This document shows positions 5,096-38,970 of a stretch of 64,000 nt of DNA, in pieces. Under the pieces are notes generated by a model. The model saw only the letters and a program-made list of their open reading frames with translations, had not been told where the DNA came from and did not search any database. The translations under genes and the position numbers were made by a program. How positions within the stretch are numbered: the first letter of the stretch is position 1; every line of letters starts with the position of its first letter. Source of the DNA: an uncultured Oscillospiraceae bacterium (GTDB lineage Bacteria > Bacillota > Clostridia > Oscillospirales > Acutalibacteraceae); NCBI GenBank assembly GCA_949283785.1, contig CASDTR010000035.1:1-64000 (forward strand), read 5' to 3'.

Positions 5096-5321
5096 AATAA
5101 TATCCTCCTATTCCTTAATCGGAAATATAATTTCTAATGGTGTATCAATACACATCGGCAGGTCTGCGGCGAAACGGTCATAACACAATATTATTCGGAT
5201 GTATCATGTCAAATAATTGATTTTTATGCAATATTAGAATAGAATAATATAATGTGTAGGTGTACTTAAATTTCTATGTTCCATAAAGATAACAGAATGA
5301 TTTTTAGGTAGGTAATAGGGT

Positions 5322-7958
5322 ATGGAATTAATAAATAATACAAGTAAAACCTTAAAAGATGATTTGTCAGTTGAAATAAAGAAAGGCAGCAAGCTGTCTA
5401 TTGCAGCAGCTTGTTTCTCAATCTATGCTTTTCAGGAACTTAAAAAAGAATTAAGCAGTATTGATGAATTGCGTTTTATATTTACATCTCCTACCTTTAC
5501 AACAGAAAAGGCCAAGAAAGAGAAGCAAGAATTTTATATTCCACGTATTACCCGTGAGCGCAATCTTTATGGTACAGAATTTGAAATCAAATTAAGAAAT
5601 GAATTAACCCAAAAAGCAATTGCACGAGAGTGCGCAGAATGGATCAATAAAAAAGTTACTTTCAAATCTAATATTAGCGATAAATCCATTCAAGGTCAAA
5701 TAGTTGTTGATAATATTGGTTATACTCCTATAAACAACTTCACAACTGTAGAACTTGGATGTGAAAAAGGCAATGTTATAAGTACAACTATAGTTAAGGA
5801 TGAATCCTTGGCTAAATCTCTTTTTGATGATTTTAACGAAATCCGGAATGACAGAAGAATACTTCAGGAAGTCACTGATGAGGTTATTGACAGTATTACA
5901 GCAGCGTATCAGGAAAACTCTCCCGACTTTATTTATTTTGTAACATTATATAATATCTTTACAGAATTTTTAGAAGATATTTCTGAAGATGTTCTTCCCA
6001 ATGAGGCTACTGGATTTAAAGAAAGCAAAATATGGAACATGCTGTATAACTTTCAGAAAGATGCAGTTCTCGCCATAATCAATAAGCTTGAAAAATACAA
6101 TGGATGTATCCTTGCGGACAGTGTAGGATTAGGTAAAACTTTCACGGCACTTGCAGTGGTAAAATATTATGAAAACCGTAATAAATCAGTACTGGTTTTG
6201 TGTCCGAAGAAGCTTACAAACAACTGGAATACATATAAAGATAACTATATAAATAATCCTATTGCATCAGATCGTCTGCGATACGATGTCCTTTATCATA
6301 CCGATCTTAATCGAACGAGCGGAACTTCCAACGGTCTTGATCTGAGCAGGCTCAATTGGGGTGCGTATGATCTCGTTGTAATAGATGAATCGCACAATTT
6401 CCGTAACGGAGGAAAGCTTGTTGAAAATCCCGATGAAAACGATAAAGAAAATCGCTATGTAAAACTTTTGAAAAAGGTTATCAGAGCGGGTGTTAAGACA
6501 AAAGTGCTTATGCTTTCGGCTACACCGGTTAACAATCGTTTTAATGATCTTAAAAATCAGCTTGCCCTTGCCTATGAAGGAAATACGGATTACATAGATG
6601 AAAAATTGAATACAACACGTTCTATTGATGAAATTTTCAAAAATGCTCAGAGAGCGTTTAACGTTTGGAGTAAATGGGAGCCCCAAGATAGAACTACGGA
6701 AAATTTGCTGCGTATGCTCGATTTTGATTTTTTTGAGATTTTGGATAGTGTTACCATTGCACGCTCCAGAATGCATATACAGAAATATTACGATACAACC
6801 GATATAGGTACATTTCCGACGAGACTTAAGCCTTTATCGCTCAGGCCAAAGCTTACTGATTTAAAAGAAGCAATAAATTACAATCAGATTTTTGAGCAGT
6901 TATTACTTTTAAACCTTGCAATATATATGCCGTCTCATTTCATACTGGATAGCAAAATAGAAAAGTACGCTCAGCTCCATGGAGATAATAAGGTCAATGT
7001 TGGCTTTACTCAGGCTAACCGTGAAGAGGGAATCAGAAGGCTGACAGGCATTAATTTGATGAAGCGAATGGAAAGTTCGGTATATTCATTTAATCTTACT
7101 TTGAAAAGAATTAAGGAGTTAATTGATAACACAATTCAGACCATAGATAATTATGATCGTTCTTCAGTAGTAAACCTTGAGCTTACAGATATGACGAACA
7201 TTGAAGAATACGACAGTGAAGATCAGAATGATGAAGAACTTTTCACTTTCGGCAAAAAGGTTAAAATCGAACTTGGAGATATGGATTATAAATCGTGGAG
7301 GCGGAATCTTGTAAAAGATGCAGAAATATTGGAGCTGCTAACCTTAATGGTTGCCGATATCACGCCGGAACACGATTCTAAGCTGCAGGAGCTTTTCAGA
7401 GTCATACGGGATAAACTTGAACATCCTATTAATCCTGGAAATAAGAAGATCATTATTTTTACTGCTTTTGCAGATACTGCAGAATATTTATATGACAATG
7501 TAAGTCAATATGTAAAAGAGACTTTTGGATTGAACACGGCGATGGTATCTGGTTCGGTAGAAGGTAAAACGACAGTTCCGAAGCTTCGCAGTGATCTCAA
7601 TACGGTTTTGACATGCTTTTCTCCCATATCAAAGGACAAGCATTTGCTTATGCCGTCTGATAATACGGAAATAGATTTTCTTATTGCTACCGACTGTATT
7701 TCAGAAGGACAAAACCTACAGGATTGTGATTATTTAATCAATTATGATATACATTGGAATCCTGTACGCATCATTCAGCGCTTTGGACGAATTGATCGTA
7801 TTGGCAGTAAAAATGCATATATTCAGCTTGTAAACTTTTGGCCTGATGTAACGCTCGATGAATATATCGACTTAAAAGCGAAGGTTGAAACCCGTATGAA
7901 GATTGTTGATATGACGGCAACTGGTGATGATAATCTTTTGAGCGATGGGAAAAAGTAG
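5322..7958 (+). CDS. PLD/SNF2-type helicase, main part (frameshifted at 3' end)
   Basis: An 878-residue superfamily 2 ATPase. The N-terminal 200 residues resemble the phospholipase-D-like domain found on this helicase group. Helicase motifs follow: Walker A DSVGLGKT near 265-273, DESHNF near 353, SATP near 390, and the C-terminal helicase lobe with ATDCISEGQNLQ near 787 and QRFGRIDRIG near 818. The frame stops at 7958 after a run of five A's. Adding one A restores VDLEYRKQQLKRLQEEV and joins the downstream frame that ends at 8947. Such helicases occur with DUF4391 and a type III-like Mod, exactly as here, where they act as restriction-like DNA translocases. Confidence 0.88.
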   Translation: MELINNTSKTLKDDLSVEIKKGSKLSIAAACFSIYAFQELKKELSSIDELRFIFTSPTFTTEKAKKEKQEFYIPRITRERNLYGTEFEIKLRNELTQKAIARECAEWINKKVTFKSNISDKSIQGQIVVDNIGYTPINNFTTVELGCEKGNVISTTIVKDESLAKSLFDDFNEIRNDRRILQEVTDEVIDSITAAYQENSPDFIYFVTLYNIFTEFLEDISEDVLPNEATGFKESKIWNMLYNFQKDAVLAIINKLEKYNGCILADSVGLGKTFTALAVVKYYENRNKSVLVLCPKKLTNNWNTYKDNYINNPIASDRLRYDVLYHTDLNRTSGTSNGLDLSRLNWGAYDLVVIDESHNFRNGGKLVENPDENDKENRYVKLLKKVIRAGVKTKVLMLSATPVNNRFNDLKNQLALAYEGNTDYIDEKLNTTRSIDEIFKNAQRAFNVWSKWEPQDRTTENLLRMLDFDFFEILDSVTIARSRMHIQKYYDTTDIGTFPTRLKPLSLRPKLTDLKEAINYNQIFEQLLLLNLAIYMPSHFILDSKIEKYAQLHGDNKVNVGFTQANREEGIRRLTGINLMKRMESSVYSFNLTLKRIKELIDNTIQTIDNYDRSSVVNLELTDMTNIEEYDSEDQNDEELFTFGKKVKIELGDMDYKSWRRNLVKDAEILELLTLMVADITPEHDSKLQELFRVIRDKLEHPINPGNKKIIIFTAFADTAEYLYDNVSQYVKETFGLNTAMVSGSVEGKTTVPKLRSDLNTVLTCFSPISKDKHLLMPSDNTEIDFLIATDCISEGQNLQDCDYLINYDIHWNPVRIIQRFGRIDRIGSKNAYIQLVNFWPDVTLDEYIDLKAKVETRMKIVDMTATGDDNLLSDGKK

Positions 7959-8947
7959 ACCTTGAGTATAGAAAGCAGCAGTTAAAGCGTCTGCAGGAAG
8001 AGGTTGTCGATATTGAAGATATGATTACGGGCATTTCGATTATGGATCTTGGTCTGAACGAATTCAGAATGGATTTGCTTGAGTATATAAAGACTCATAA
8101 CGATCTTGATAAAACGCCATTTGGCTTACATGCAGTTGTACCTTCATGTGAAGGGATGCCTGCAGGTGTCATTTATGTGCTTAAGAATCGTTCAAACAGC
8201 GTTAATATAGACAATCAGAATCGCCTGCATCCGTTTTATATGGTATACGTTAGTATCGATGGAAAGATTGTATGTGATCATTTATCGCCTAAAGAAATGC
8301 TGGATAAAATGCGATTTTTATGCAGAGGAAAAAACGAGCCATATATTTCTTTATGCAAAGCATTTAATAAGGAAACACAAGACGGAAGAAACATGGACGA
8401 GTGTTCGAAGCTTTTGGAGAATGCCATATCTTCTATAATAGAGGTAAAGGAAGAAAGTGACATTGATTCCTTTTTAGGTGGAGGACAGGTAAGCTTTTTG
8501 TCAAATGAAATTAAAGGTTTGGATGATTTTGAGCTTATATGTTTTTTGGTAATAAGAGAGGCATCAAAAGATGATTTACCGAAAGAAGCATATAAACTTG
8601 TAATAGCAGGCACCAGAACTTTTAATGATTATGAATTTCTTTCACATGTTGTTGATGAGCATATTAAAGAGAGAGTAAAAAATACATCTGTGACAATAAT
8701 CAGCGGAGCAGCCAACGGAGCAGATAAACTGGGTGAACGTTATGCGCAAGAAAGAGGATATTCTCTTGAAATTTTTCCGGCGGACTGGGAACATTTAGGT
8801 AATGCAGCCGGACCGGTTCGTAATGCACAGATGGCAAAGGAAGCGGATGAAGTGATTGTTTTTTGGGACGGAGAATCACCTGGAACAAAAAATATGATAG
8901 AAGCAGCCAAAGCAGAGAAAATTCCCTGTACTGTTATTAGGATTTAA
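7959..8947 (+). CDS. Helicase C-terminal region fused to DUF2493/SLOG domain (second part of frameshifted gene)
   Basis: The ATG at 8021 is internal. The frame really continues the upstream helicase after a one-base loss in the A-run near 7950. The first ~180 residues are the helicase tail, ending in the typical DFELICFLVIRE. Directly attached is a SLOG-superfamily domain of the DUF2493 type: VIAGTRTFNDY, ISGAANGADKLGERYA, FPADWEHLGNAAGPVRN, VIVFWDGESPGTKNM. SLOG domains bind or process nucleotide-derived ligands and are often sensors in conflict systems. The fusion suggests ligand control of the helicase (inference). No start codon with a good ribosome site supports independent translation. 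Confidence 0.8.
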
Positions 8948-8967: not shown

Positions 8968-9336
8968 ATGCTTGGATTACCAAAGAATACGGAGTTGAAT
9001 AAGCAACTTCCAAAGAAAGCGATTTATGCAAAGTTTCAAATGAATACCTCAGCAAAAGACAAAATCGACAGCGATATAGCAAGAATGTCAATTGTCAATG
9101 AGGTTTCGCCGTCGAGGATAAACATTGCAGCAGGAGAAGCCGTAAAAGGATTCTATGTTCTTTGTGTATATCTTAAGAAGAAAGAATTTGACGAAAAGAA
9201 TATAATAACGATTTCAAAGATTATACCGCAGAAATTGATTATGATATTGGTATATGAAAACGAGTCGAGGCTTGCCAGTATATCATACCCGACTGATGAT
9301 GACGCCATGGGAGAAAACGGAAAATATATCCATTGA
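8968..9336 (+). pseudogene. DUF4391 protein, N-terminal part (frameshifted)
   Basis: It starts with ATG after AAAGGAGAAG and encodes MLGLPKNTELNKQLPKKAI, the canonical N-terminus of DUF4391, followed by DIARMSIVNEVSPSRI and the IIPQKLIMILVYE segment. After residue about 103 the frame leaves the family. An extra A near 9277 is the simplest explanation: removing it gives RLAVYHTRLMMTPWE and continues into the frame that ends at 9565. DUF4391 genes lie between helicase and Mod in type III-like restriction loci; their molecular job is unknown. Confidence 0.85.
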
Positions 9337-9565
9337 ACTTAAAGGGCTTGACCTTGATAAAGTATGGGAAAACATTATTATACAAATCGGCGGGGTGAAT
9401 ATTGACGACGGAAATACCTTTGATGAGCAGATTGTGATTGATGAGCGGAGGGCAAAGCTGCAAAAAGAAATTGACAGGCTTGAAAAACTTGCACGAGCTG
9501 AAAAGCAGCCTAAGAAGAAGTTCGAGCTGGTAAGAAAACGGCAGGAGCTTATAAAGCAGCTCTGA
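9278..9565 (+). pseudogene. DUF4391 protein, C-terminal part (other reading frame)
   Basis: This frame carries the rest of the DUF4391 family: ELKGLDLDKVWENIIIQIGG, then NTFDEQIVIDERRAKLQKEI and a basic coiled-coil-like end (KLARAEKQPKKKFELVRK). The ATG at 9254 is before the frameshift point and is not a natural start. It ends in TGA, which shows TGA is a normal stop in this organism. The following gene begins 15 bp later with GGGGAGG as ribosome site, so the operon continues. Confidence 0.8.
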
Positions 9566-9580: not shown

Positions 9581-10984
9581 ATGGGATTATTTGATATTGA
9601 TAACAAGTGGTTCTTTGGCGGTCTGTTTGATTTTAATCATGACGGAAAAACCAGCTGGAGCGAGCAGTTTATGGCTCATAAGATGTTCGAGGAAGGTGCC
9701 AAAGAGCAGAATAACAATAATTTCTGTTCGAATACTTTCGACAGTGACACACTGCATACACACCGGAAAGCCCGCTCAAAAAGTGAAACAACTGTCAGTG
9801 TTACGGTTTCAATAGAGGTTTCCTTTCCTGATCTCAATAAAAAAGAGGACATTAAAGAAGAAGACTATCCCAATAAAAGGCAGTATAATGCTGCTTGTGC
9901 ACTTGCAGGAACAATTATTTACTGCGACGAGGAATGTGAAAGAGAGAAAAAAGCTATATGTAATTTTATTTTGAATAAGTCCTCAGAGCTTGTTGCAGCA
10001 AGATACCTGACAGCTAGTGGAGATTTTCTCTATGCTCAGGCGGTAAAGGATAATTTTGATTTGCCGATAACACTTCCGGATGAGGATGAGAAAAGAGAAT
10101 ATTTTTTTAAGGATATACTCAAAAAGCTGGCAAGAAAGGATATTCCTCTTTGCTTCGAGGTATGGTCATGGTGCTTGGATAATTTTTTGAAATATTCTGA
10201 GTACGACTCTTTTTCAAAAGCGACACTGACAAATCGAATAATAGATGATCTGTATGATTTCCCGGATGAATTTGAGCCGGCACTCATAAAGTATTTAAGC
10301 AGTCATCCGGATTTCAGAAAAGCAGTAATAAGAGAAGCTGATGAGGTTTCAGGCAAACTGCCAAAATTAATTGTTGACGCAATCAAGCTGGATTTGCATG
10401 ATACGGCAAAGCTGCTTTTTGAAGACGGACTTGCGAATGCTGACGGTAAATGGAAACCAATAAACAAGCTTATGTCAGATACTATTCTTTTCGCTGAAAA
10501 TTACGACGAGCTTGAAACGATTGAATATGTAGAGCAAAATCTTTTACCTCTTGTCAAGGCATATCCGGACGGAATGATAGCTGATGAAATTGAAACGTGG
10601 GAAAGAGATATTGCCGAATATAAACTCGATGTTGAAAAGCGATGTGATAAGTACGCTTATCTGAGGGAGGGGAAAGATAGAAAAGCGTTGGGGGAAGGCA
10701 ATAACAAAGAGAAAAAAGCTGTAAATATATCTCAGCAATTGGATGATAAAGCGGTTTATACTTATTGCGGTGTGTTGCTTTCGTTTTCCTCTCGACCATA
10801 TTTTTTCAGAACGGATAAAGATGATATAGAAATCGGCGACAGGGTAATTGTTCCTGTGGGCATTGATAATGAGAAAACGGAAGGCGTTGTAGTTTCAATC
10901 GGGAAATATTTGCGCATAGTAGCTCCGTTTCCTGTTGAAAAAACAAAGTTTATAATAAAAAAAGTTGTACCGGAAGAAGAGTAG
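9581..10984 (+). CDS. EF-hand-like protein with PriA-like C-terminal domain
   Basis: A 467-residue protein of unknown function embedded in the restriction-like operon. Near the N-terminus is FDFNHDGKTSWSEQF, a canonical EF-hand loop (D-x-N-x-D-G with Glu at position 12) following the GGLFDF lead-in. Residues about 70-370 are largely helical. The last ~85 residues (VYTYCGVLLSFSSRPYFF, then IEIGDRVIVPVGIDNEKTEGVVVSI) resemble the beta-barrel 3'-DNA-end binding domain at the N-terminus of PriA. A DNA-binding accessory role is possible but unproven. The start is supported by GGGGAGGCAAAAGC directly upstream. Confidence 0.75.
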   Translation: MGLFDIDNKWFFGGLFDFNHDGKTSWSEQFMAHKMFEEGAKEQNNNNFCSNTFDSDTLHTHRKARSKSETTVSVTVSIEVSFPDLNKKEDIKEEDYPNKRQYNAACALAGTIIYCDEECEREKKAICNFILNKSSELVAARYLTASGDFLYAQAVKDNFDLPITLPDEDEKREYFFKDILKKLARKDIPLCFEVWSWCLDNFLKYSEYDSFSKATLTNRIIDDLYDFPDEFEPALIKYLSSHPDFRKAVIREADEVSGKLPKLIVDAIKLDLHDTAKLLFEDGLANADGKWKPINKLMSDTILFAENYDELETIEYVEQNLLPLVKAYPDGMIADEIETWERDIAEYKLDVEKRCDKYAYLREGKDRKALGEGNNKEKKAVNISQQLDDKAVYTYCGVLLSFSSRPYFFRTDKDDIEIGDRVIVPVGIDNEKTEGVVVSIGKYLRIVAPFPVEKTKFIIKKVVPEEE

Positions 10985-11038
10985 TTAAAGATATCTGAGC
11001 TTGTGCAAAAGATAAAAAATTGAAAGAGGAGTTAAAAG

Positions 11039-11647
11039 ATGTCTAAGGTTTTTGATTTTATCATTGCAAATGCAGGATGGATTATTGCTATTATAGGTTT
11101 CTGTATTCCGCCTGTCAGAGAGTTTTTCATCAAAAAATTTCAATCATCTTTGGACAAAGCGTTAGAGGATAGAAAAAGCTTAAACGATAGAAAAAATTAC
11201 ATTAGCAAGACGAGGTTTGATACTGAATTTCAAATTTACAGAGAACTGTCAAAAAGTTTTTTTAATGCTACAAAAAAGATACACCGTTTAATTCCTTACG
11301 GCGTTTCAACAGTTCCGGTGTTTGAAAACGAAAAAGATAAAGATAAGTATGAGCACGAAATTTACCAGGATGCTTTCAATGACTATATTATTGCCAGGGA
11401 TGCTCTGATTAGTAATGCTCCTTTTATACGAAAAGATATTTATGATAAATATTATGAATTGTTAGAAATATGCAATTTACAATTAAATGTATATTTTCAA
11501 AGATGGAATTTGTCTTTTGCAGGACTAAAGTATGAAGAAAGAATGCCTGAGATTGTGGATTATAAAAGAACAAAAGAAATGACGGATAAGTTTGAAAAAT
11601 TAAACGATGAGGTAAGAAACTACTTGGCAAATTTGGATGTGTTATAA
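11039..11647 (+). CDS. Membrane-anchored protein of unknown function
   Basis: A 202-residue protein with one N-terminal hydrophobic segment (residues about 7-25, FIIANAGWIIAIIGFCI), followed by a basic stretch and a long helical, charged cytoplasmic-type domain. AAAGAGGAG lies upstream of the ATG. No family is recognised. It is one of five small membrane-anchored genes flanking the mod gene (also 11713, 13974, 14629 and 15221), so membrane anchoring is a shared theme of this cluster. Confidence 0.7.
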   Translation: MSKVFDFIIANAGWIIAIIGFCIPPVREFFIKKFQSSLDKALEDRKSLNDRKNYISKTRFDTEFQIYRELSKSFFNATKKIHRLIPYGVSTVPVFENEKDKDKYEHEIYQDAFNDYIIARDALISNAPFIRKDIYDKYYELLEICNLQLNVYFQRWNLSFAGLKYEERMPEIVDYKRTKEMTDKFEKLNDEVRNYLANLDVL

Positions 11648-11712
11648 TATCCGAATAAAGTGCTATATAAATTAAGATCGAAAAATTCAGTTAGAAAAGA
11701 GTTGAGTTTAAA

Positions 11713-12039
11713 TTGAATGCAGTCTTTGAAAAGCTATCCAGACAATGTATTCTACGAATAGCTATATGTTTGTTAGTTTCAATTGTTTTGATTATTTTTT
11801 TACCACCTGATTTTTATTTGAATCTTTTAATTGAAGAAAAATTTAAAGATTTCTATCCAACAGCTATTAAATTGTTCCTTTATAGTGGAGTCTTACTTTT
11901 GGTTTTATATGTTTTAGAGTACATTTTAAAATACACTATGTATGTTTTAAAAAGATTTGCAAGATGGCTTTTAAAAATATGGATAAAAAAATATCAAAAA
12001 AATCATCCCGATGTAAAATTTGAACAGAGAGGTAACTAA
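11713..12039 (+). CDS. Small two-helix membrane protein
   Basis: A 108-residue protein that would begin at TTG (11713) after AAAAGAGTTGAG, as no ATG is placed suitably. There are two hydrophobic segments, about residues 15-33 (IAICLLVSIVLIIFLPP) and 55-75 (LFLYSGVLLLVLYVLEYIL), then a basic C-terminus rich in Lys and Trp. It ends two bases before the mod start, so the two are translationally coupled. Function is unknown; the start choice is uncertain. Confidence 0.55.
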   Translation: MNAVFEKLSRQCILRIAICLLVSIVLIIFLPPDFYLNLLIEEKFKDFYPTAIKLFLYSGVLLLVLYVLEYILKYTMYVLKRFARWLLKIWIKKYQKNHPDVKFEQRGN

Positions 12040-12040
12040 A

Positions 12041-12214
12041 ATGTCTAAGCTCAAAATGCACACGCCGAATAAGGCGGATGAAAACTATAAAAAACTTGCT
12101 GAGCTGTTTCCCAATGCGGTAACTGAGACCATTGACGAAAACGGCGAGGTAGTACGTGCTATTGATAAAGATGTGCTCATGCAGGAGATAAATACAATGG
12201 TAGTAGACGGCTGA
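12041..12214 (+). pseudogene. mod: Type III-like Mod methyltransferase, N-terminal piece before in-frame TGA
   Basis: ATG at 12041 follows AGAGGTAACTAA and begins MSKLKMHTPNKADENYKKLA, the usual start of these site-specific adenine methyltransferases. The frame then meets TGA at 12212-12214 and continues without any shift into EERYQFTWPDKKKSV and the large downstream frame. Relatives read GREERYQ here, so a CGA to TGA change is the simplest explanation. The rest of the protein could only be made by read-through or by restart at an internal codon. Confidence 0.82.
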
Positions 12215-12256
12215 GAGGAACGATATCAGTTTACATGGCCTGATAAGAAAAAGTCA

Positions 12257-13972
12257 GTGCTGTTTGCGAATGCACCCATAGCAAAAACCCTCAGACCATG
12301 CAGAGAAGAAAGTGTTGATTTTGATAATACAGAAAATCTGTACATAGAGGGCGACAATCTTGAAGTGCTCAAGCTTTTGCAGGAAACCTATCTCGGCAAA
12401 TTTAATCTTATTTATATTGATCCTCCATATAACACAGGGAATGATATTCTTTATGCTAATGATTATTCAGTCAGGCAGGAGGAATATGAAGAAAAATATG
12501 AATTAGATAGTGAAGGGAATTATCTGTACACTAATACTGATTTAAACGGTAGATATCATACTAACTGGTTAAATATGATAAATCAACGTATCCGTCTTGC
12601 CAAAAATCTTTTGACTGAAGATGGCTTTTTTGCAATTGCTATTGACCACAACGAATTGTTCAATCTTGGTCAAGTTTGTGATGAGGTTTTTGGTTTTTGT
12701 AATCGAATTGGAATAATAACTGTGGTACATAAACCTGAGGGTAGAAACCAAGCAAAATTTATTGGTCCGAGTAATGAGTTTATGTTGTTGTATGCAAAAA
12801 ATGAAACAGTTGCTAAACTTCAGAATGTGGTACTTGACCCTGAGATATCAGCAAAATATGATAAAAAAGATGATGCAGGCCATTACAGGCTGCAGAACTT
12901 TATTAGAATGACCGACGGAAAACTTGCCTACAGAAGTGTAAGGCCAAAATTTTGGTATCCGATATATGTAGACGTAACTAACAATAAAATCTCAACGAAT
13001 AAATCTGATTTATGTGTAGACTGTATTGAAGTTTACCCTAAGACAAAAGCTGGAGTAGAAATGAGTTGGAAAGTGTTGCCTAACTCAGCTCAAGAACTTA
13101 TTGAAAATGGTAACCTAATTCTAAGCGTAGATAAAGAAGGCTTCATCACGATTATGGAAAAAATCAGAGAGAAGCAAGTTATTAAAACTCATTGGATAAG
13201 AAAAGAATATAATGCAATTAAGTATGGTACAAAAATTGTTAATGAATTACTAAAGGCAAATCTTTTTGACTTCCCTAAATCGTTGTTTTTAGTAGAAGAT
13301 GTTATAAAATTATGCTGTCCACCAAATGGTATGGTGCTTGATTTTTTTTCTGGTTCAGCAACAACAGCACATGCTACTATTTTGTCAAATTTGAGAGATA
13401 ATGGAACTAGAAAATTTGTTATTGCTCAAATTCCAGCTTCTTGTCCAGAAAATAGTGCAGCCTATAAAGAGGGTTATAAAAACATCTGTGAAATCGGCAA
13501 AGAGCGTATTCGCAGAGCTGGTGCAAAAATTAAAGAAGAAAATCCGCTTACAACACAAAACCTTGATGTCGGTTTTCGTGTTCTCAAGTGCGACAGCTCC
13601 AATATGAAAGATGTCTATTATAATCCTTCTGAGTATGAGCCGTCGCTGTTCTCAGGTCTTTCAGACAATATCAAAGAGGACAGAACTCCGGAAGACCTGT
13701 TATTCCAGGTAATGCTTGATTTAGGTGTTCTGCTTTCAAGTAAAATTGAAGAAACAACTATTGCCGGCAAAAAGGTATTCAATGTTGCGGATGGCTTCCT
13801 TATCGCCTGCTTTGATGAGAAAGTAACCGACGAAACCATTACAGCCGTCGCAAAACAGAAGCCTTATTATTTTGTAATGCGTGACAGCTCCATGGCTTCC
13901 GACAGTGTTGCCGCCAATTTTGAGCAGATTTTCGCTGCATATAGCCCTGAAACTGTAAGGAAGGTACTGTAA
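12257..13972 (+). CDS. mod: Site-specific DNA adenine methyltransferase (type III Mod-like), main part
   Basis: A 571-residue remainder of the Mod protein from an internal start (or after read-through of the TGA at 12212). Motif IV DPPYNTGND lies near residues 53-61, before the SAM-binding DFFSGSATTAHA near 360-371; this is the beta-class order of type III Mod enzymes. The middle carries the variable target-recognition region. The C-terminal part (FRVLKCDSSNMKDVYYNP) is typical of the family. In working systems Mod methylates adenine in the recognition site and guides the partner Res; no Res is present downstream. Confidence 0.88.
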   Translation: MLFANAPIAKTLRPCREESVDFDNTENLYIEGDNLEVLKLLQETYLGKFNLIYIDPPYNTGNDILYANDYSVRQEEYEEKYELDSEGNYLYTNTDLNGRYHTNWLNMINQRIRLAKNLLTEDGFFAIAIDHNELFNLGQVCDEVFGFCNRIGIITVVHKPEGRNQAKFIGPSNEFMLLYAKNETVAKLQNVVLDPEISAKYDKKDDAGHYRLQNFIRMTDGKLAYRSVRPKFWYPIYVDVTNNKISTNKSDLCVDCIEVYPKTKAGVEMSWKVLPNSAQELIENGNLILSVDKEGFITIMEKIREKQVIKTHWIRKEYNAIKYGTKIVNELLKANLFDFPKSLFLVEDVIKLCCPPNGMVLDFFSGSATTAHATILSNLRDNGTRKFVIAQIPASCPENSAAYKEGYKNICEIGKERIRRAGAKIKEENPLTTQNLDVGFRVLKCDSSNMKDVYYNPSEYEPSLFSGLSDNIKEDRTPEDLLFQVMLDLGVLLSSKIEETTIAGKKVFNVADGFLIACFDEKVTDETITAVAKQKPYYFVMRDSSMASDSVAANFEQIFAAYSPETVRKVL

Positions 13973-13973
13973 T

Positions 13974-14612
13974 ATGGGCGATATTTTTAAATTTAATTTT
14001 CCTATTGGCTGGGACGAGCTGGGCGTAATTTTTACTTCTCTGGGTGCGATTTTTACTTTTTTTGCTGTGATTGTGGCTTTATTTGCTAATCATAATTCCG
14101 GGAAGCAATTGAAAAAAGCGCTTCAAATGCATGAACAGTCAAAAAATATAGAACTATTTGATAAGAGAGTGGCTTTGATAGAAGATATAAAAAATAATGT
14201 AACTATATCATATACAGCATTAAAATTGCTATTTAATGATGAAATTGTTTCTTCAATGGAGGCGTATACGAAGAGTCACAACATTGTTGGGGATTATAAA
14301 ATGGATGATCATAGTTACTGGATTTTATTTAATAAGCAGTATGGATATGAAAAACAGCATCTGATAATGAAATTGTTTAGATATTGTGATGATTTTGATA
14401 ATTTGACTGATAAACAAAAATCTGATTTCAAAAGTCTATGTGATTCATATACAGTATGTGCTTCGGGAGAGAATGGAGTTGAAAGGACAATTAATTATTA
14501 TGATATTGCTGAAAATTTAACCAAAGCACGTGCCGCCGATGAAGCAAATAAAGAGGTGCTTATCAAACAAATGGAACAATATATTTCTGATTCGATAAAG
14601 CCGCTTTCCTGA
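13974..14612 (+). CDS. Membrane-anchored protein of unknown function
   Basis: A 212-residue protein starting one base after the mod stop codon, so coupled to it. One long hydrophobic segment (about residues 17-43, LGVIFTSLGAIFTFFAVIVALF) is followed by a mostly helical cytoplasmic domain. It ends in TGA. No family is assigned. Similar small membrane-anchored passenger genes are common in restriction islands, but here several occur in a row. Confidence 0.7.
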   Translation: MGDIFKFNFPIGWDELGVIFTSLGAIFTFFAVIVALFANHNSGKQLKKALQMHEQSKNIELFDKRVALIEDIKNNVTISYTALKLLFNDEIVSSMEAYTKSHNIVGDYKMDDHSYWILFNKQYGYEKQHLIMKLFRYCDDFDNLTDKQKSDFKSLCDSYTVCASGENGVERTINYYDIAENLTKARAADEANKEVLIKQMEQYISDSIKPLS

Positions 14613-14628
14613 GGAGACAAATAAAACT

Positions 14629-15135
14629 ATGAAATTTGATTTTTCTGCTCCGCTGACGTTAGGTGAAGTTATAACAATCCTTATCGGCGCAGCACCTGTT
14701 TTAGCAACGATTGTAACTGTCATTGTAAAAAAATTCAGAAAAGTATTTTATGCAGAGCCAATTATAAGAGTGGATAATTGTGATGGTTTGTGCATGAATA
14801 TAATAGTGGACTTACATAATATTACACCAAATACAATACTGATAACGGATGCTGTTGTGGTTAAAAGGCTTTTTGGTATATTAAAAAAAGATATTTGGGG
14901 TGAAGATATACTCAATGTACCTATTAATGTGATTGGAAATGGGCATGTTGAATTGTCGATAAGAATACACCCACTTTTTTATGATAGATTAGCTGACGAA
15001 AAAAATAAATTTATCAATTTATGGATTCCTTATTTATGTGTAACAGATGCTTCTAAAAGGAAGCACTATATTAGATTAATTTCAAATGTTGAATTTTTAA
15101 AGTCTCTAATAGAGTTTTATTTGATAGAGACATAA
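14629..15135 (+). CDS. Single-pass membrane protein (paralogue 1 of 2)
   Basis: A 168-residue protein preceded by GAGGAGACAA. It has an N-terminal membrane segment (about residues 12-32), then a beta-rich domain with LWIPYLCVTDASKRKHYIRL near the end. The next gene has the same layout and the same closing motif (FWVPYLCVIDSNGRKKYIKI), so the two are paralogues from a tandem duplication. The function is unknown. Confidence 0.7.
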   Translation: MKFDFSAPLTLGEVITILIGAAPVLATIVTVIVKKFRKVFYAEPIIRVDNCDGLCMNIIVDLHNITPNTILITDAVVVKRLFGILKKDIWGEDILNVPINVIGNGHVELSIRIHPLFYDRLADEKNKFINLWIPYLCVTDASKRKHYIRLISNVEFLKSLIEFYLIET

Positions 15136-15220
15136 AATTGCAGAAAGAACATAAAACCATTGCAAAAACATCGGGCGATTGTAATGGGAGAACGCTGTAA
15201 AGAATAATGAAGGTGCTGTA

Positions 15221-15778
15221 ATGATTTTTGATGCAACTGTTCCTGTTACTTGGAGTGATATTTTATCCTCTACTCTATCCCTTTGTTCTGTGGTCATCTC
15301 TGTAATTGCTTTGTTTAGAACTTTTTATAGAAAAAAGTTTTATGGAAGTGCTTGGATTGTAAATACAGAGGGTGAAACATTAGGTGTACGTATAGAAGCT
15401 ACACTGTACAATATATCCGGCACAAGCATATTGGTTAAAGATGCATATGTTTGTGAACGTTTTTTAAAACTTTTTTATAATCGCAAACACATATTGTGGA
15501 GAGACTTTATAAAAAATCCGTTTTTCATTAAGAACGATGATTCTTATGAGATGACTATGGATTTGTGTTTATATTATGATTCACTGATAGATGGAAGAAA
15601 AAATAGACATTCACGATTCTGGGTACCATATTTATGTGTGATAGATAGTAATGGCAGGAAAAAATATATAAAAATTGATAAAAATATGGTGCTCCTGGAA
15701 AAGCTTGATATGGCAATATGCAAAGCCAGTTTGGATTTGTTTGAAAAAACAAGAGTAAACAAAAAAGCTGATGAATAA
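15221..15778 (+). CDS. Single-pass membrane protein (paralogue 2 of 2)
   Basis: A 185-residue protein with GAAGGTGCTGTA ahead of its ATG. It shares with the preceding gene an FDA/FSAP start, one membrane segment near residues 14-32, a segment on local interactions (LYNISGTSILVKDAYV versus LHNITPNTILITDAVV), and the VPYLCVID motif. A further ribosome-site-like AGAAAGGTGCAG and ATG follow at 15820-15838, but no gene continues there, indicating a lost downstream neighbour. Confidence 0.7.
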   Translation: MIFDATVPVTWSDILSSTLSLCSVVISVIALFRTFYRKKFYGSAWIVNTEGETLGVRIEATLYNISGTSILVKDAYVCERFLKLFYNRKHILWRDFIKNPFFIKNDDSYEMTMDLCLYYDSLIDGRKNRHSRFWVPYLCVIDSNGRKKYIKIDKNMVLLEKLDMAICKASLDLFEKTRVNKKADE

Positions 15779-17579: not shown

Positions 17580-17608
17580 TGTCTAAATCCCCCATTAATT
17601 ATGATTTA

Positions 17609-17636
17609 ATTATATCATTTGTCTGAATTTTTACAA
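17609..17636 (-). promoter_or_regulatory. Promoter of WYL regulator copy 1
   Basis: Read on the minus strand: -35 TTGTAA (17636-17631), 16-bp spacer, -10 TATAAT (17614-17609), about 30 bp ahead of the ATG. Confidence 0.6.
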
Positions 17637-17638
17637 TC

Positions 17639-17660
17639 TTGTTATACATTGTAACAATAA
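17639..17660. promoter_or_regulatory. Dyad upstream of WYL copy 1, candidate operator
   Basis: TTGTTATAC (17639-17647) faces TAACAATAA (17652-17660), forming an imperfect palindrome just upstream of the -35. The same TTGTTATAC ... ACAATAA arrangement occurs at the promoter of the paralogous WYL gene (20204-20226), so it is likely the shared autoregulatory site. Confidence 0.5.
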
Positions 17661-17707
17661 GGCACTTTATACAAATATGCGATCTGTTTTTTTCTATCAA
17701 TGTTTCA

Positions 17708-18390
17708 TCAAGGAACATAAAACTCTTCAAAAGTATCGAGACATATGCATCCCAGAGGATTGCCGAAAGCTGCTGAGCAGTCAATGGCAATGTGATTGTT
17801 TTTTCGATAAATCCTGCCTTTATATGCTTTGTCAATGAGCTCTGTGGGTGTGTGACCGGATACGAAAAATTTATCTTCAAAATATATTTTGTCATACTCG
17901 ATTTTGCCGATTATAAAATCGTTAAATTGGCACAAGTCAAGATTCTGCATTTTTTCCTTTTTCGGTCCTGTGTGGGACAGAAAAAAGCTGCGTCCTGATA
18001 CGGTGATTTCATCAAATAAGGGGAGCGAGTTCAGATAGAAAGAACTTTCTCCCTGTCTGCGTCACTCAGTGCCCTGAATTTTTCAAAGGTGGGATATCCT
18101 CCATCGGAAAACCACATATTATAAATTTGTTTTAAGTTATCTGCATCAGGAGAATTTACAATAAGAGGCAGACTCCTTAACAGTTTAAAAGCTGTGTGAT
18201 CATGATTTCCACGAAGACAGATTACGTTTTTGCGCTCGGAAAGATCCAGCAGCAGTTTTATTCCGTCGGGACCTCTGTCCACCACATCCCCAAGGATATA
18301 AAGTGTGTCGCTGTCGCTGAACTGAATTTTTCTGAGCATTTCGGTAAATTTGTCATAGCATCCGTGTAAATCTGAAACTGCATAAATCAT
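17708..18390 (-). pseudogene. Ser/Thr-phosphatase-like metallophosphoesterase, frameshifted
   Basis: The N-terminal part (18390 down to about 18031) carries SDLHG, GDVVDRGPDG and GNHDH; the C-terminal part, read in another frame to 17708, has SGHTPTELI and IDCSAAFGNPLGCICLD. A single missing T near 18033 separates them: restoring it gives KVLSYLNSLPLFDEITVSG and one continuous protein of about 227 residues. The complete catalytic set would then be present. It may be decay or a sequencing error. It is a different subfamily from the phosphoesterase at 1332. Confidence 0.82.
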
Positions 18391-21655: not shown

Positions 21656-22949
21656 TTTGGCGCCGCAGATAATTCAATATATTATTCCAAAACCAAGGAG
21701 AATGGAACTGATACTGAAGATGATTTTCTGACAGAAGAACTGGTTGATACTCTTTCGGAAAAGGATTTAAATCAGTTTACCCTTGATCAGTGGATTCTGC
21801 TTTACAGGCAGGCAAAAACAGTTCAGAACAAAAAGCAGGCAGCATATTTGTCGGGGGCTGGAAAACGTGTTCCTCACGAAATAACTTTTAAAGATATCGA
21901 AGTGTTTCCGGGGGTGCCGTGGCTGAGTGACGACATAATAAATGATTTTGTTTATTACCTTATTTACGGTACCGAAAACACCTCAGATTCAGATAATAAA
22001 TATATTAGTTATGAACCGGTTACAGGGTATTGGTATATAAAAGATAAAAGGATGTACAGAAATAACAGAATAAATTATACATACGGATTACCGGATTATA
22101 ACGCACTGTTCATTTTTGAGGCCATGCTTAACCTGCGTGAAATCAAACTCTTTGATATATTCAGAAAATACGACGAGAAAAGAACAATTGCCGCCAGGGA
22201 AAAGTACGATGTAATACTGGGACTTTTTAAAGAATGGATATGGCAGAGTGATGACAGAAAATGGGAAATAGAAGAAGCGTATAATAAAGCATTTGGTAAG
22301 TTCAAAGCCGGTAAATATGACGGTTCATCCCTGAAATTTCCGGAAATGAGCAAGGATATAGCGCTGTATCCCTATCAGAAAGATGCAGTTCAGAGAATAC
22401 TGACCGAGAAAAATACGCTTCTTGCCTTTGATGTCGGTTCTGGAAAAACGTATATTATGATTGCCGCTGCCATGAAATTGAGAGAAACGGGAATTTCACG
22501 AAAGAATATGTTTGTTGTTCCCAATAATATTGTAGGACAGTGGGAACTTATATTTAAAAGAATGTATCCTGAAAGCAGGTTGCTTACCATAGATCCGAAA
22601 TCTTTCAAGCCGGAAATGCGGCAAAAGGTATTGAAGCAGATACAGGAAGCAGATTATGACGGCATTATTATTGCATACAGCTGTTTTGAGATGATTCCGC
22701 TTTCCGGCGAAGCGGTTATGGCTCAAATTAATAAGAAACTGGATGAACTTAAAGGTGCCGTATGCAATCTGCGATATCAATACGGAACACAATCTGCTAT
22801 TGACAGAGAGTCTGCTTATTTGAAGAAACTTGCTGCCGAAATGCTTGCGGGACTGCATTGCAAGGCAGAAGGAATTACTTTTGATGAGCTTGAAATAAAC
22901 AGTTTGTTTGTTGATGAGGCGCATAATTTTAAGAATAGCGCGAAGCGTT
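21656..22949 (+). pseudogene. SNF2-family helicase, 5' exon (interrupted by group II intron)
   Basis: Open in the same frame as the sce7726 domain, with no ATG and only a TTG at 21848. Residues include ITFKDIEVFPGVPWLSDDII, then YPYQKDAVQRILTEKNTLLA, Walker A DVGSGKT, FVVPNNIVGQW, and motif II VDEAHNFKN. Exon sequence ends at 22949 inside a Ser codon, where the intron begins; reading on gives only CA and a stop. The helicase lobe resembles those of large mobile-element helicase proteins. With its nuclease domain it would be a nuclease-translocase. Confidence 0.8.
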
Positions 22950-25778
22950 GTGCATAAGTCGTAGCTGGCAGCTATGACGAACAGCACCATACGATAGCAC
23001 TTGCTATTACAAGAAAATATCGTAGAGAACTCATATCTCAAATTCAGAGGTGAAATTCCTCTGCCGTACAGAATCAATGCCGGAATGGAGAAATCCCACA
23101 GCGGTCTGTCAAACCGCAGGCAGTACGAGAGCTAATACTCCACTGTGCGCTGTCTATCTGTAAGTAGACAGGGTACAAAGCGTGGTGAAGTCGTAACCTG
23201 AAAACCTAAACCGAGAGGCATGGATAATAATGGTGCGGGCTTCCGAAACCTATGGCTATACGTTAGGGAAAGCTATGCAGCATCGTAAGAGTGATAGGCA
23301 CCCGAAAGGGTGAAAATTGGAAAAAGTGAGTGTGGTTGGTTTTTCTGCATTCACCCCATGAGATGAAATGCTCATGCGGACTTGCACAGCAACTGTGATT
23401 CAAAGTGCAAGTGGATTTTCCCGGTGTAAGGTAGCGGCCTAAGGGTTTCAAAGGTCTTTTGACCATAAGGATAGAGATTTGGGAACGCTTGAGAGCCTGT
23501 GTTTGGAGTGTTACAGCACAATGAAGGACACAGGAAGTCAGCCGTGCCATAGTAGTCTGCGATTGGGTAATGCCAATCACACGGGGCTGAAATGCTCCAC
23601 GGCGAAGGGCACGAGTCAGATTGATTTGTAAATTTCACAAAAGAAAATCTTATAACTCCCTGAAAGATGGGTGACGAACTGCGAGGTGAAAACCTTGTGC
23701 ATTTAGACGTCAGATTTTCAACAGAAACAGAATTGAAGCAGTTCCAAGACCTGCTTTATGAAAAGTCTGGTCAAGGTGTTTCATTCACCGGACTGTTGGA
23801 AGCGATGGCAAACGAAGTAACCATCGTGACCGCTGTTCATAACATCAAGTCCAATAAGGGCAGCAAAACTGCCGGCGTGGACAGGATGAAAATGGACAGA
23901 TATCTTCAGATGCCAAAAGAAGAACTATTACGGTTGATTCAAGAAAATTTCTCCAATTATAAACCAAAACCAGCAAAACAAAAATATATTGAAAAAGCCA
24001 ACGGCAAAATGCGACCTTTGGGTATCCCCACTGTGTTAGACAGGATTATTCAGGAGTGTGTTCGACTGATTCTCGAACCGATATGCGAAGCGAGATTTTA
24101 TCCGCACAGCTATGGGTTTCGCCCATACCGGGCACAGAAGCACGCAATCCGAGATATTGTCAATGTCATAAATGCAAGTGTGAAATCCAAAGATCAGCCA
24201 GTATGGGCAGTTGAGGGTGATATTAAAGGCTGTTTTGACAATATCAACCACCGGCTGCTGCTCAATAAGCTGTGGCGAATCGGCATACATGACAAGAGAG
24301 TTTTGAAAATCGTCAGTCAGATGCTGAAAGCCGGATATATTGACAATGACCTCTATCATGCAACGGAAATGGGCACACCACAGGGCGGTATTTTATCACC
24401 ACTGCTGTCAAATGTGTATCTCAATGACTTTGACTGGTATGTAGGTCGCTGCTATATGGAGCCGCACCGACAATGCAAACACAAATGCAATGATACTCGG
24501 CGGCTCAAGTGGTCTGGGGTCACTCCCAAGTACAATTTTCGTTATGCTGACGATTGGGTAATCCTGACATCAACGGAGCAGGAAGCACTCCGGATGAAGC
24601 AAGAACTCACAAAGTATTTCAAATATCGCATGAAACTGGAATTGTCGCAGGAAAAGACCTATGTAACCGATTTAAGAAAGGACGGTATCCATTTTCTCGG
24701 TTACATAGTCAAGGCAGAACGCAAGCGCAAAACCCCAAATCCATCCACATGGTCAGAACATCTGGTTGGAAAACCGCTCCCTGACATGGAGCGACTATCC
24801 AAGAAAATCCATAGTCTGCAAAAAGAAATCCGGAAAATTGGTCTCTACACAAAGCCCAATACGCAGGCGGCACAAATCCAGTATGTGAACTCCATAATCA
24901 TGGGTCTGGCACAATATCTTCAACCGTCCATCTGTTCCCACGCCTATCATGCTATAGACCGCAGAGTGAACAACACGGCACTTGCAGTTTGGAAAAAGCT
25001 GTTCCCGAAACAGTACAACGATATGCAAATACCGCTAAAGGAACTCTGCAATCTGCCTCATAGGCATGAGGGTTACGACAGTAAAACTTTCGCTATAGAA
25101 ATTGACGGAAAATGGTTCGGTATTACTATGGCTTTCATTACGCACAGCAAATATGAAAGCAAGCCATTTGACCAGAATATGACTCCATACACGGAAGATG
25201 GGCGACGACGATATGTGAATTACAGAAACAAGCATAAGCCTCTGCCTTGCGACCGTCCCTCCATTAACAGTCCAGAGGACCTTGCGCTGTCTGCCTATGC
25301 AACGGGTAAGGGCTGGAAAGCGAATTTTGAGTACTTTATGAATCGTGAATATGCTTATAACCGGGACAAGGGAAAATGTAAATGCTGTGGCAAATACTTT
25401 TCTGAAATCGTCCCAAAGCATTGCCACCATGTAAATAACAGGCTTCCGATTGATAGAATCAACAAGGTTCCCAATTTGGCATGGCTTTGTGTACCGTGTC
25501 ACCGCATGGTACACAACAGTCCAATACCGCCTGAGCTGGATGCAAAGACGGTACGCAAAATCCAGAAATACAGAGATAAACTCAAAATGTGGAATTTACA
25601 AGTGCGCCGTACTCGCGAGGGTACGAGTGCAGTGAAATCAGTAGAAAGTAAGTCAATTTGATGGAAGGCTGGGTGCGCTGAAAGGTGCACGCCCGGCGTG
25701 AGACGGGGGAAAATCTGGAGGAAACGAATGTGCGGCTTCGCCGCACATAACGTCCAAACGATTACCTATCGTCATTAC
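22950..25778 (+). mobile_element. Group II intron with intact maturase
   Basis: A 2829-bp intron inserted just after helicase motif II. The 5' end is GTGCATAAG. IBS1 in the exon, AAGCGTT (22943-22949), is perfectly complementary to AACGCTT in domain I (23484-23490), a seven-base EBS1-IBS1 match. Domain V is the GAAA-capped hairpin at 25668-25697 (GCTGGG ... CCCGGC with a CG bulge). Domain VI follows and ends with TTACCTATCG ... ATTAC at 25778. Removing 22950-25778 joins CGT-T to CT-TTG and restores the helicase frame exactly (KRSLRTNLRN). Confidence 0.9.
23667..25661 (+). CDS. ltrA: Group II intron reverse transcriptase/maturase with HNH endonuclease
   Basis: A 664-residue intact LtrA-type protein. 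The reverse transcriptase domain holds RPLGIPTVLDRIIQE, GDIKGCFDNI, GTPQGGILSPLLSN and the catalytic FRYADDW (Tyr293-Asp296). A maturase/thumb domain follows, then a C-terminal zinc HNH nuclease: CKCCGKYF, HCHHVNNRLPIDRIN, LCVPCHRMVH. It splices the host intron and copies it into new sites. The ATG at 23667 has a weak ribosome site; TTG at 23694 after GCGAGGTGAAAACC is an alternative start. All catalytic residues are present, so the intron may be active. Confidence 0.95.
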   Translation: MGDELRGENLVHLDVRFSTETELKQFQDLLYEKSGQGVSFTGLLEAMANEVTIVTAVHNIKSNKGSKTAGVDRMKMDRYLQMPKEELLRLIQENFSNYKPKPAKQKYIEKANGKMRPLGIPTVLDRIIQECVRLILEPICEARFYPHSYGFRPYRAQKHAIRDIVNVINASVKSKDQPVWAVEGDIKGCFDNINHRLLLNKLWRIGIHDKRVLKIVSQMLKAGYIDNDLYHATEMGTPQGGILSPLLSNVYLNDFDWYVGRCYMEPHRQCKHKCNDTRRLKWSGVTPKYNFRYADDWVILTSTEQEALRMKQELTKYFKYRMKLELSQEKTYVTDLRKDGIHFLGYIVKAERKRKTPNPSTWSEHLVGKPLPDMERLSKKIHSLQKEIRKIGLYTKPNTQAAQIQYVNSIIMGLAQYLQPSICSHAYHAIDRRVNNTALAVWKKLFPKQYNDMQIPLKELCNLPHRHEGYDSKTFAIEIDGKWFGITMAFITHSKYESKPFDQNMTPYTEDGRRRYVNYRNKHKPLPCDRPSINSPEDLALSAYATGKGWKANFEYFMNREYAYNRDKGKCKCCGKYFSEIVPKHCHHVNNRLPIDRINKVPNLAWLCVPCHRMVHNSPIPPELDAKTVRKIQKYRDKLKMWNLQVRRTREGTSAVKSVESKSI

Positions 25779-27526
25779 CTTTGAGAACAAACTTGCGAAA
25801 CATTTCGGGAATTAATATAAAGGGTTCAAAAAAATGTCTTGATATGCTTCATAAGGTCTGGAATGTTCAGGAAGAAAATAACGGACGCGGTGCAATTTTT
25901 GCAACAGGTACACCTATATGTAACTCCATTTCCGATACATATGCTATGCAGATGTATCTTCAGTATGATCAGTTAAAGGAGATGCATTTTGACCGCTTTG
26001 ATAATTGGGTAAAAAGTTTTGCAAAGCCAGAGTATATCTGTGAAATTGATGTAGATACGTCGAAATTCAGATTTATCAACCGCTTTTCACGTTTTTTCAA
26101 TCTCCCTGAGCTTTCAAAAATGTTTTCGGGCGTGGCAGCATTTTATGCGGTAGATGATGAATCGGAATTGCCTGAATTTTCAGGGTATGACGATATACTT
26201 ATACCACGGAATGTAAGACTTCAGGAATATATGGACAGCCTTTGCAGGCGAACTGAAAAAATCAGAGCAAAAGAGGTTGATAAAAAACAGGACAATATGC
26301 TGAAAGTGAGTACCGACGGACGTAAAGCGGCGCTTGATCTGCGGCTGGTAGAAAAAGAACAACCCTATAATGAAAATTCCAAAATCTTTCAGTGTGTAAA
26401 AAACGTTGCGTCCGTTTACAGGCAGGATAAAGATTATGTACAAATTATTTTCTGTGATTATTCAACTCCTAAGAATATGGAATTCAATGTTTATTCAGAA
26501 CTCAAGAAACATTTAATTGAAGAAGGCATTCCCAAATGAGAAATAGCATTTATCCACAGTTATCACTCAGAAGCCGGGAAAGTCAGGCTTTATGAAAAAG
26601 TTAATGCAGGCAAAGTCCGCATACTTATCGGGTCAACTTTCAAGTTGGGAATAGGTGCCAATGTACAGACGAAGCTAAAGGCTATTCATCATCTGGATGT
26701 GCCTTGGAGGCCGGCGGACATGGTGCAACGGGAAGGACGAATCATCAGAAAGGGCAATAAAAATGATACGGTGTCTGTTTACAGATATATCTGTGGCGGA
26801 AGTTTTGATGCTTATTCCTGGCAGGTACTCGAAACAAAACAACGCTTTATTTCTCAATTTCTTGCAGGCTCAGCCTATCAGAGAACGGTTTCAGATTTGG
26901 AAGAAAATGTTTTAACCTATGCTCAGGTTAAGGCGTTGGCCATATCCGATCCGCAAATGAAAGTTCTGGCAGAAAAGGAAAACGAATTAAGAAGAATCCG
27001 GCTTCTTTCATCGGAATATATTTTCTCTCGTGAGAAAATATGTAAACAGAACGAAGAATTATATAAACGTATTCCGGAATTGAAAAATCGCCTTGAAGTC
27101 ACAAAGGAAAATGATAGATATGTGAGTGGAATTTCTGGAGAAGTTATTAAAAACGAGTATATGCGTATAAAATCACTTATAACTAAAAATCAGGATATGA
27201 CGCTGCAAAACTCAGAATTGTCCTTTCTTGATTTTAAAATTTTGTATCCCGAAGAACAGAATGAGAAGAAACCCTACATTGTTCTCGAAAGGCTTAATGT
27301 AAAGTACAGAGTTGAAATCGGTGAATCGCCGGCGGGAAATGCACGCCGAATTGTGAATTTCCTGAAAAAGCTCTCCGACCTGTGCAATACATATCGAGAA
27401 CAGATAAAAAAACTGGAAGATACTGCCGAGCAAAACAAAAAAGTTATGAAAGGAAATAACCCCTATATAAACGAAATCAGCAGATTGTCTGATGAAATCA
27501 GAAACATAAAATCTCAAATAATTTAA
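25779..27526 (+). pseudogene. SNF2-family helicase, 3' exon with in-frame TGA
   Basis: It continues the helicase after the intron: GRGAIFATGTPICNSISDTY, DRFDNWVKSFAKPE, RKAALDLRLVEKEQPY, and IIFCDYSTPKN. A TGA at 26537-26539 interrupts PK-EIAFIHSYHSEAG. The frame then resumes unchanged with LIGSTFKLGIGANVQ and PWRPADMVQREGRIIRKGN (motifs V and VI), and a coiled-coil C-terminus. Exons plus nuclease domain total 3576 bp, exactly 1192 codons in one frame. With TAG at 21653 and this TGA, the gene carries two nonsense codons, so full-length protein is unlikely. Confidence 0.8.
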
Positions 27527-27849: not shown

Positions 27850-27878
27850 TTGAAACATTATTCATAAGACATTATAAT
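27850..27878 (+). promoter_or_regulatory. Sigma-A promoter of the DUF262 operon
   Basis: TTGAAA (27850-27855), a 17-bp spacer and TATAAT (27873-27878) lie 38 bp ahead of the DUF262 start. Confidence 0.7.
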
Positions 27879-27915
27879 GAATTTAATATATTGCCTATAT
27901 GTTCAGGAGGATAAA

Positions 27916-34554: not shown

Positions 34555-34899
34555 TAAAATGATGTAGTTATAAAAACAAGAAAACGAGTTTTCAAATGGC
34601 TGGATGTTTCGTTTATTAAAAGGAAGATCTAATGCTTTTTGTTGTCACCTTATGTACAATGGAAAGTTTTAATTTCATATCAATTGAACAGGCAAAAATT
34701 GCCTGCGCTAAAAAGCTTTTCAACTAGATGTCAACGAGCAAAGTGAGATATCATGATGTTGACAGTTATCAGTCGCTTTTGAATGTTATGAAGTCATTAA
34801 AATAACAGAGGAAATATAGTTTCCGGTCAAGGAGCTCTATGCGCCTGAGAATCAGGTCCGCATTGAATAGCATCAGCGGATTTTACCCAAAATTTAACA
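34555..34899. other. Degenerate intergenic stretch
   Basis: No intact gene. A frame from an ATG at about 34632 reads FISIEQAKIACAKKLF and, after a TAG, KVRYHDVDSYQSLLNVMKSL before stopping near 34804. This may be a decayed small gene, but I recognise no family. Confidence 0.3.
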
Positions 34900-38960: not shown

Positions 38961-38970
38961 CGGAGTAAAG

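Follow-up and report, generated by a model that had tools for sequence, protein, structure and literature searches.

A SLOG domain fused to SNF2-type helicases of type III-like restriction operons: a putative exchangeable C-terminal module

Background

Several described systems come close to the locus analysed here. The Thoeris protein ThsA (SIR2-SLOG) is activated by isomers of cyclic ADP-ribose (cADPR), according to PMC11204291 and PMC10022894; in the latter, residues of the ThsA SLOG domain are reported to coordinate 3'cADPR, and R371, K388 and E403 are named as ligand residues. Sporadic SLOG fusions, including one with a Superfamily-1 helicase, were described in phages, and sensing of NAD+/ADP-ribose derivatives was proposed for them (PMC9503650). 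The BREX-related Type-2 systems comprise an HKD-Swi2/Snf2 helicase, a DUF499 ATPase, an N6 methyltransferase and DUF3780 (PMC12839542). DprA binds single-stranded DNA, to judge from the titles of the structure entries 4ljk and 4ljl. The present study concerns an SNF2-type helicase with a C-terminal SLOG domain, encoded at positions 5322-8947 of a stretch of 64,000 nucleotides (the window) from an uncultured Oscillospiraceae bacterium (assembly GCA_949283785.1, contig CASDTR010000035.1). No report of the helicase-SLOG fusion was met in the literature searched by title and abstract, subscription literature being mostly outside that search, and DUF4391, the neighbouring family of this locus, was met there only in work on another subject, by title.

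Results

The reading frames of the helicase/SLOG locus were analysed. The region 5322-8947 revealed two open reading frames (ORFs) and not one, namely ORF A (5322-7958, 878 amino acids) and ORF B (8021-8947, 308 amino acids). The body of the usual helicase ends with the motif DFELICFLVIRE, and ORF B is laid out as helicase C-terminus, this motif, a short linker and a SLOG domain of the YAcAr family. The features of the locus are as follows.

5322-7958, + strand: ORF A, SNF2-type helicase, N-terminal region and both helicase lobes (residues 1-878)
7940-7958, + strand: frame break at or next to a G/A run, with the TAG that ends ORF A directly after it
7959-8563, + strand: C-terminal part of the helicase, lying in the second frame (ORF as listed from 8021), ending with DFELICFLVIRE
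8564-8590, + strand: short linker, variable among the fused proteins (alignment of 10 fused tails)
8591-8947 including the stop, + strand: SLOG domain, YAcAr (DUF2493) family, Pfam PF10686 with E 1.6e-15

The profile PF10686 (YAcAr), which we take to be the former DUF2493, matched residues 192-257 of ORF B with 57.1 bits against a gathering cut-off of 28.2, placing the domain in the YAcAr family. An earlier note on this DNA had described 5322-8947 as one open gene, which was not borne out, as the TAG ends the ORF at 7958 and the remainder lies in another frame, the change of frame falling near 7945-7958. Its claim that a complete SLOG domain follows DFELICFLVIRE in frame with the helicase C-terminus held for ORF 8021-8947. 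The note had thus seen the fusion and left unmentioned the frame break in the helicase and the breaks in the neighbouring genes.

ORF A matched the Pfam families Helicase_C (E 9.2e-15) and SNF2-rel_dom (E 3.7e-12), and the PADLOC profile C3a139 (HKD+Snf2) covered its residues 2 to 874 with E 6.4e-108. The assignment to DrmD of DISARM failed, with 151 bits for NCBIfam NF038317 against a cut-off of 610. The nuclease motif HxK(x)nD of the PLD (HKD) family gave one chance-like match in the first 240 residues of 85 helicases, and no Pfam PLD match was obtained. The window helicase shares 84.5% identity with the helicase of the intact fused locus L049, and the L049 protein aligned to the window in two pieces, at 5307-7955 in frame 3 and at 7949-8944 in frame 2. 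The helicase C-terminal region showed 71-72% identity with unfused L032 and L036 and 85% with unfused L058. Programmed frameshifting at the break was considered and disfavoured, the fused gene being a single open frame in all nine relatives described below; in the three inspected at this site (L049, L050 and L051) no shift is needed, and two of them carry an A-rich run of their own.

The occurrence of the fusion in other species was then obtained from a scan of a genome collection (84,980 species by its description) with ORF B, which gave at least 459 confirmed relatives, 80 of them being kept. The full fusion was present in at least nine other species (L049-L057), whose proteins aligned over ORF B residues 1-308 or 1-307, and in one case 1-299, at 57-76% identity. 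In each of the nine the fused helicase is a single uninterrupted ORF of 1199-1221 amino acids, and the carriers include strains of Massiliimalia timonensis, Negativibacillus massiliensis and Faecalibacterium gallinarum. The usual members of the family end at about DFELICFLVVR/K: among the 80 kept loci, 69 have only 1-15 residues after the end motif and nine have 127-132, the pattern having missed two (L122 and L126). The result is in accordance with the earlier statement that helicases of this type usually stop at DFELICFLVIRE, and the homologue search for a C-terminal DUF2493 that had been suggested thus returned nine full-length fused relatives. The outcome named beforehand as refuting the fusion, homologues with DUF2493 in a gene of its own, did not occur within the stretches that were searched: neither the ORFs downstream of the unfused relatives nor tblastn over the stretches L032-L128 revealed a separate SLOG gene near these helicases, and the tblastn matches were confined to the nine fused loci plus L048, where a SLOG gene stands alone in a genus mate. 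A genuine fusion of helicase and SLOG within a restriction-like operon is therefore supported, nine other genomes having intact homologues.

The fusion was infrequent in the genomes sampled. It was present in 1 of 300 genomes of the family (the window's own; 11 others had the helicase part only). Among 394 genomes of the order, 15 gave a match with E up to 1e-60 and two had the fusion; among 391 of the class, 17 gave a match with E up to 1e-50 and three had the fusion. The window genome is part of every one of these overlapping samples, and the two additional fused cases are L049 and L057 by their contig coordinates. None of the 124 plasmid records and none of the 765 phage records with a match reached 80% coverage of ORF B, all four relatives on viral contigs among the matches listed were unfused, and no near-identical DNA was found in plasmids. 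At L058 the unfused helicase, which the tree places with fused L049, has a tail of 12 residues about 100 bases before DUF4391 (6526-6675), and no SLOG remnant was found in that interval.

The history of the SLOG tail was compared with that of the helicase body. The ten fused SLOG domains formed one clade, with support 99/98, against 64 other YAcAr domains, mostly free-standing genes. The fused helicases were scattered over their tree with seven changes, and at least four and six changes were forced by well-supported branches in two trees. A single clade of fused helicases was rejected by the approximately unbiased (AU) test with p-AU 1.1e-65 and a log-likelihood lower by 547 (71 of 85 rows), and so was a single clade of the DUF4391 genes of fused loci, with p-AU 2.5e-5 (80 rows; five loci and proteins below 180 amino acids left out). 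In the other direction, the SLOG data rejected helicase-like groupings, namely the nine without L056 (p-AU 0.016) and the window with L055 (p-AU 0.002). The SLOG domains of L055 and L056 are sisters (99/89 in the full tree, 93/87 in the small tree), a pair rejected by the helicase data with p-AU 3.5e-49 in a small helicase tree built from 29 of the 85 rows. At the DNA level, L049 and L050 are about 76% identical over the helicase, windows of 200 giving 66-82%; the identity climbs in the last 100 bases or so before the helicase/SLOG junction and stays at 88-92% through SLOG and DUF4391, and the cargo beyond differs.

The SLOG clade set against scattered helicases and DUF4391 genes, together with the identity step of L049/L050, shows that SLOG tails and helicase bodies have been recombined, the tail behaving as a C-terminal module in these sequence comparisons. 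In that pair the helicase/SLOG junction is the point at which the histories separate, whichever piece moved. The fusion seems to have been exchanged between different motors among related gut bacteria. Joint transfer of SLOG and DUF4391 as a rule was also considered and is not supported by the DUF4391 tree, though it fits L049/L050.

The operon around the fusion was examined in the relatives and in the window. The gene order of the fused loci is helicase-SLOG, DUF4391, cargo, Mod, cargo and Res, and the unfused relatives are alike. DUF4391 and Mod matches were present in all nine fused relatives, the Mod match of L052 being split over two ORFs. Res was present in seven of the nine on the fetched stretch, the stretches of L049 and L055 ending within a Mod gene; in those seven loci the SLOG domain is therefore no replacement for Res. 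Across L032-L128 there are two variable cargo slots, DUF4391-Mod and Mod-Res, and many of the cargo genes look like defence effectors (TIR, Abi_C, AbiH, KAP NTPase, Fic and SIR2), with RhuM and others also seen. The cargo scan covered 21 of the 22 cargo ORFs from fused loci and 116 of the 138 from unfused loci, with 25 of the 49 families listed in part of the scan. The operon genes of the window are given below.

8968-9565, + strand: DUF4391 gene in two frames, 8968-9336 and 9254-9565, Pfam PF14335 with E 1.5e-15
9581-12039, + strand: cargo genes between DUF4391 and Mod (9581-10984, 11039-11647 and 11713-12039)
12041-13972, + strand: type III Mod methyltransferase with an in-frame TGA at 12212-12214
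13974-15778, + strand: three small genes after Mod, at the position where relatives have cargo and then Res
34632-34799, + strand: Res remnant, the final 57 codons of a type III Res gene, interrupted by one stop

The DUF4391 homology switches frame near 9272-9276, as seen by tblastn with the L049 DUF4391 in two frames. The Mod part after the TGA matched PADLOC MTase_III with E 5.1e-169, and residues 1-617 of the L050 Mod ran by tblastn across the TGA in one frame. The Res remnant lies some 19 kb downstream and was the sole match in the genome to the Res query (a single query, the L036 Res). Mod and Res, taken together as the criterion of type III restriction-modification, are thus represented in the window by an interrupted gene and a tail. 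With breaks in the helicase, DUF4391 and Mod genes and only the tail of Res left, the window copy is unlikely to be functional. As a control of assembly quality, none of the genome's 54 matches to ABC-transporter domains contained an internal stop; this control, blind to breaks outside the matched regions, supports true decay of the operon and does not prove it. Of the cargo, the product of 11039-11647 is related to proteins that L050, L051, L055 and L058 encode in the corresponding slot, and after Mod the products of 14629-15135 and 15221-15778 share 29% identity with each other.

The window also holds other genes. A calcineurin-like phosphoesterase gene at 17599-18390 may be broken: the match of the ORF 18031-18390 to the Pfam phosphoesterase profile is limited to the profile's first part, and the ORF 17599-17895 gave no match. 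A further helicase gene at 21848-27526, with a ResIII part at 21848-22957 and, at 25781-27526, weak matches to SNF2 and Helicase_C that stay below cut-off, is apparently interrupted by a reverse transcriptase gene of the group II intron type (23667-25661). Two adjacent GmrSD-type restriction genes lie at 27877-31151, the first with a DUF7834 C-terminal part. The 550-residue protein of 35876-37528 has no Pfam match, and its N-terminus reads as a second SLOG-type domain (E 3.8e-4 with the fused-SLOG profile). A PemK/MazF-type toxin gene is present at 38932-39360 (Pfam E 3.4e-20).

Discussion

The reading that we favour, with moderate confidence, is that of a decayed type III-like operon whose SNF2 motor carries a SLOG module, the SLOG domain of intact copies sensing a signal and switching the motor. 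In intact systems the SLOG domain would bind a small ligand of nucleotide type or, with lower probability, DNA; the ligand-bound domain would then switch the SNF2 motor and so add a check of the infection state to the Mod/Res machine. In the window, with motor, DUF4391 and Mod interrupted and Res lost, this scheme would no longer work. Control of the motor by a nucleotide-derived ligand, as the earlier note had suggested, is a plausible hypothesis: the domain retains its core residues, but its fold is matched by the DNA binder DprA too.

The conservation and the predicted structure of the domain bear on this reading. The ratio of nonsynonymous to synonymous substitution rates (dN/dS) of SLOG was 0.08 for L049/L050, 0.18 for L049/window and 0.12 for L050/window, which indicates purifying selection in these three measurable pairs of nine. 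All ten fused domains, and 63-64 of the 64 others, have the core residues of the family, namely G and R in the first loop, SG, GxD and RN, the pattern G.R, SG.A.G.D, RN having been derived from the alignment of these same domains. An asparagine near the end (tail position 112) was found in 10/10 fused domains versus 5/64 of the others. In the AlphaFold2 model, residues 191-308 of ORF B reached a predicted local distance difference test score (pLDDT) of 85-97 by blocks of ten, and SLOG was modelled as a confident separate domain preceded by a stretch of low confidence. The best Foldseek matches of ORF B were ShosA and DprA (the top two), subunits of eIF2B, and ThsA at rank 6. No credible sequence relatives of ORF B were found among solved structures, and sequence similarity of the SLOG domain to ThsA was not detected.

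Several points weigh against the favoured reading and the module history that accompanies it. Synonymous change is saturated in the remaining six SLOG pairs. The support of the fused SLOG clade drops to 92/88 with 13 of the 64 outgroups, the helicase data only just reject the L049+L050 pair (p-AU 0.046), and the groupings put to the AU test were chosen post hoc from the trees. The start of Mod is again alike in L049 and L050 (87%), so that in this pair it may be the helicase body, and not the tail, that was exchanged. The full-length fused model is poor (mean pLDDT 61.5), so that contacts between SLOG and motor are unreadable from it. The Foldseek matches are all weak (best E 4.7e-4) and include the DNA binder DprA. 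Assembly error may also lie behind the lesions of the window.

The strongest rival, which we consider possible though clearly less probable, is that the SLOG domain is a DprA-like module binding single strands or ends of DNA, giving the motor a better grip or loading on foreign DNA with no ligand involved. The protein that carries the domain is a DNA motor, secondary DprA matches occur below cut-off in Pfam (E 8e-4) and NCBIfam (E 1.1e-3), and ShosA and DprA lead the Foldseek matches. A profile alignment also places GSR...SG.A.G.D on DprA, but with E 0.58-1, near noise, as an unrelated designed enzyme scored better (E 0.51). Moreover, the fused SLOG core is not strongly basic (net charge -4 to +5; -4 in the window copy), and ThsA, a sensor of cADPR isomers, has a Foldseek score similar to that of DprA. 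Because the weak fold matches include both ThsA and DprA, the ligand-gated motor is preferred and DNA binding is kept as a strong rival.

Plant immune receptors carry integrated decoys, and by comparison the SLOG domain could be a plug-in trigger swapped among restriction motors, in which a relative of phage SLOG domains would let an immune signal or its phage attacker switch the machine on; this extension is speculative and rather doubtful. A Thoeris-like circuit, in which a cargo TIR protein would make a cADPR-type signal sensed by the helicase SLOG, is held to be a little less probable again. TIR was present in the DUF4391-Mod slot of three of the nine fused loci (L049, L052 and L054) versus 5 of 68 unfused loci (Fisher p 0.047, a post hoc test on small numbers), the 68 being the loci with both DUF4391 and Mod seen and the duplicates L036 and L076 left out; with the unfused loci having any downstream ORF the count was 5/75 (p 0.037). 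However, six fused loci are without TIR, the five unfused loci have TIR without SLOG, and no TIR match was given by Pfam in the window cargo proteins of 9581-10984 and 11039-11647, the scan excluding 11713-12039. The enrichment is a lead for such a circuit and no more.

Comparably improbable is an ancestral fusion that was lost many times with tails never exchanged. One stop codon suffices to lose the SLOG domain, and parsimony alone cannot tell gain from loss, but the conflict between SLOG and helicase trees, the sister SLOG domains of L055/L056 against the helicase rejection of that pair, and the identity step at the L049/L050 junction all speak for exchange. Repeated loss from one ancestral fusion does not alone account for the tree conflicts, to which it may add. 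The artefact of a separate SLOG gene fused to the helicase by a lost stop or an assembly error, for which the window does offer frame breaks, is refuted by the nine homologues in which the fusion is intact, which come from different assemblies and include three from named strains, and by the failure to find a separate SLOG gene in the stretches searched.

The preferred reading of a sensing SLOG module has a wider meaning, in that the fusion points to restriction motors perhaps gated by a second signal, and a sensor-type domain here has a history different from that of its carrier helicase and of the adjacent gene. Intact homologues in named strains, along with naturally unfused helicases, provide a directly testable system with its controls.

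In comparison with known systems, the PADLOC C3a139 (HKD+Snf2) helicases share their profile with the present family, and the unfused relatives have the same operon order; whereas the usual members end at DFELICFLVVR/K, the fused branch adds SLOG. The HxK(x)nD motif is absent from the first 240 residues of the present helicases, apart from the one chance-like match in 85 rows. The BREX-related Type-2 systems likewise combine an SNF2 helicase with a methyltransferase and auxiliary effectors, but their partners differ from DUF4391, type III Mod and Res, and SLOG is unmentioned in the main text of PMC12839542. ThsA and the fused helicase are both defence-type proteins with a SLOG domain; the effector of ThsA is SIR2, whereas here it is a DNA motor, with a TIR gene in only those three fused loci. 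The phage SLOG fusions, as described in PMC9503650, have the SLOG-helicase join in common with this locus, but they are sporadic and involve a Superfamily-1 helicase, whereas the present fusion joins SLOG to a bacterial SNF2 motor within a restriction operon in ten species.

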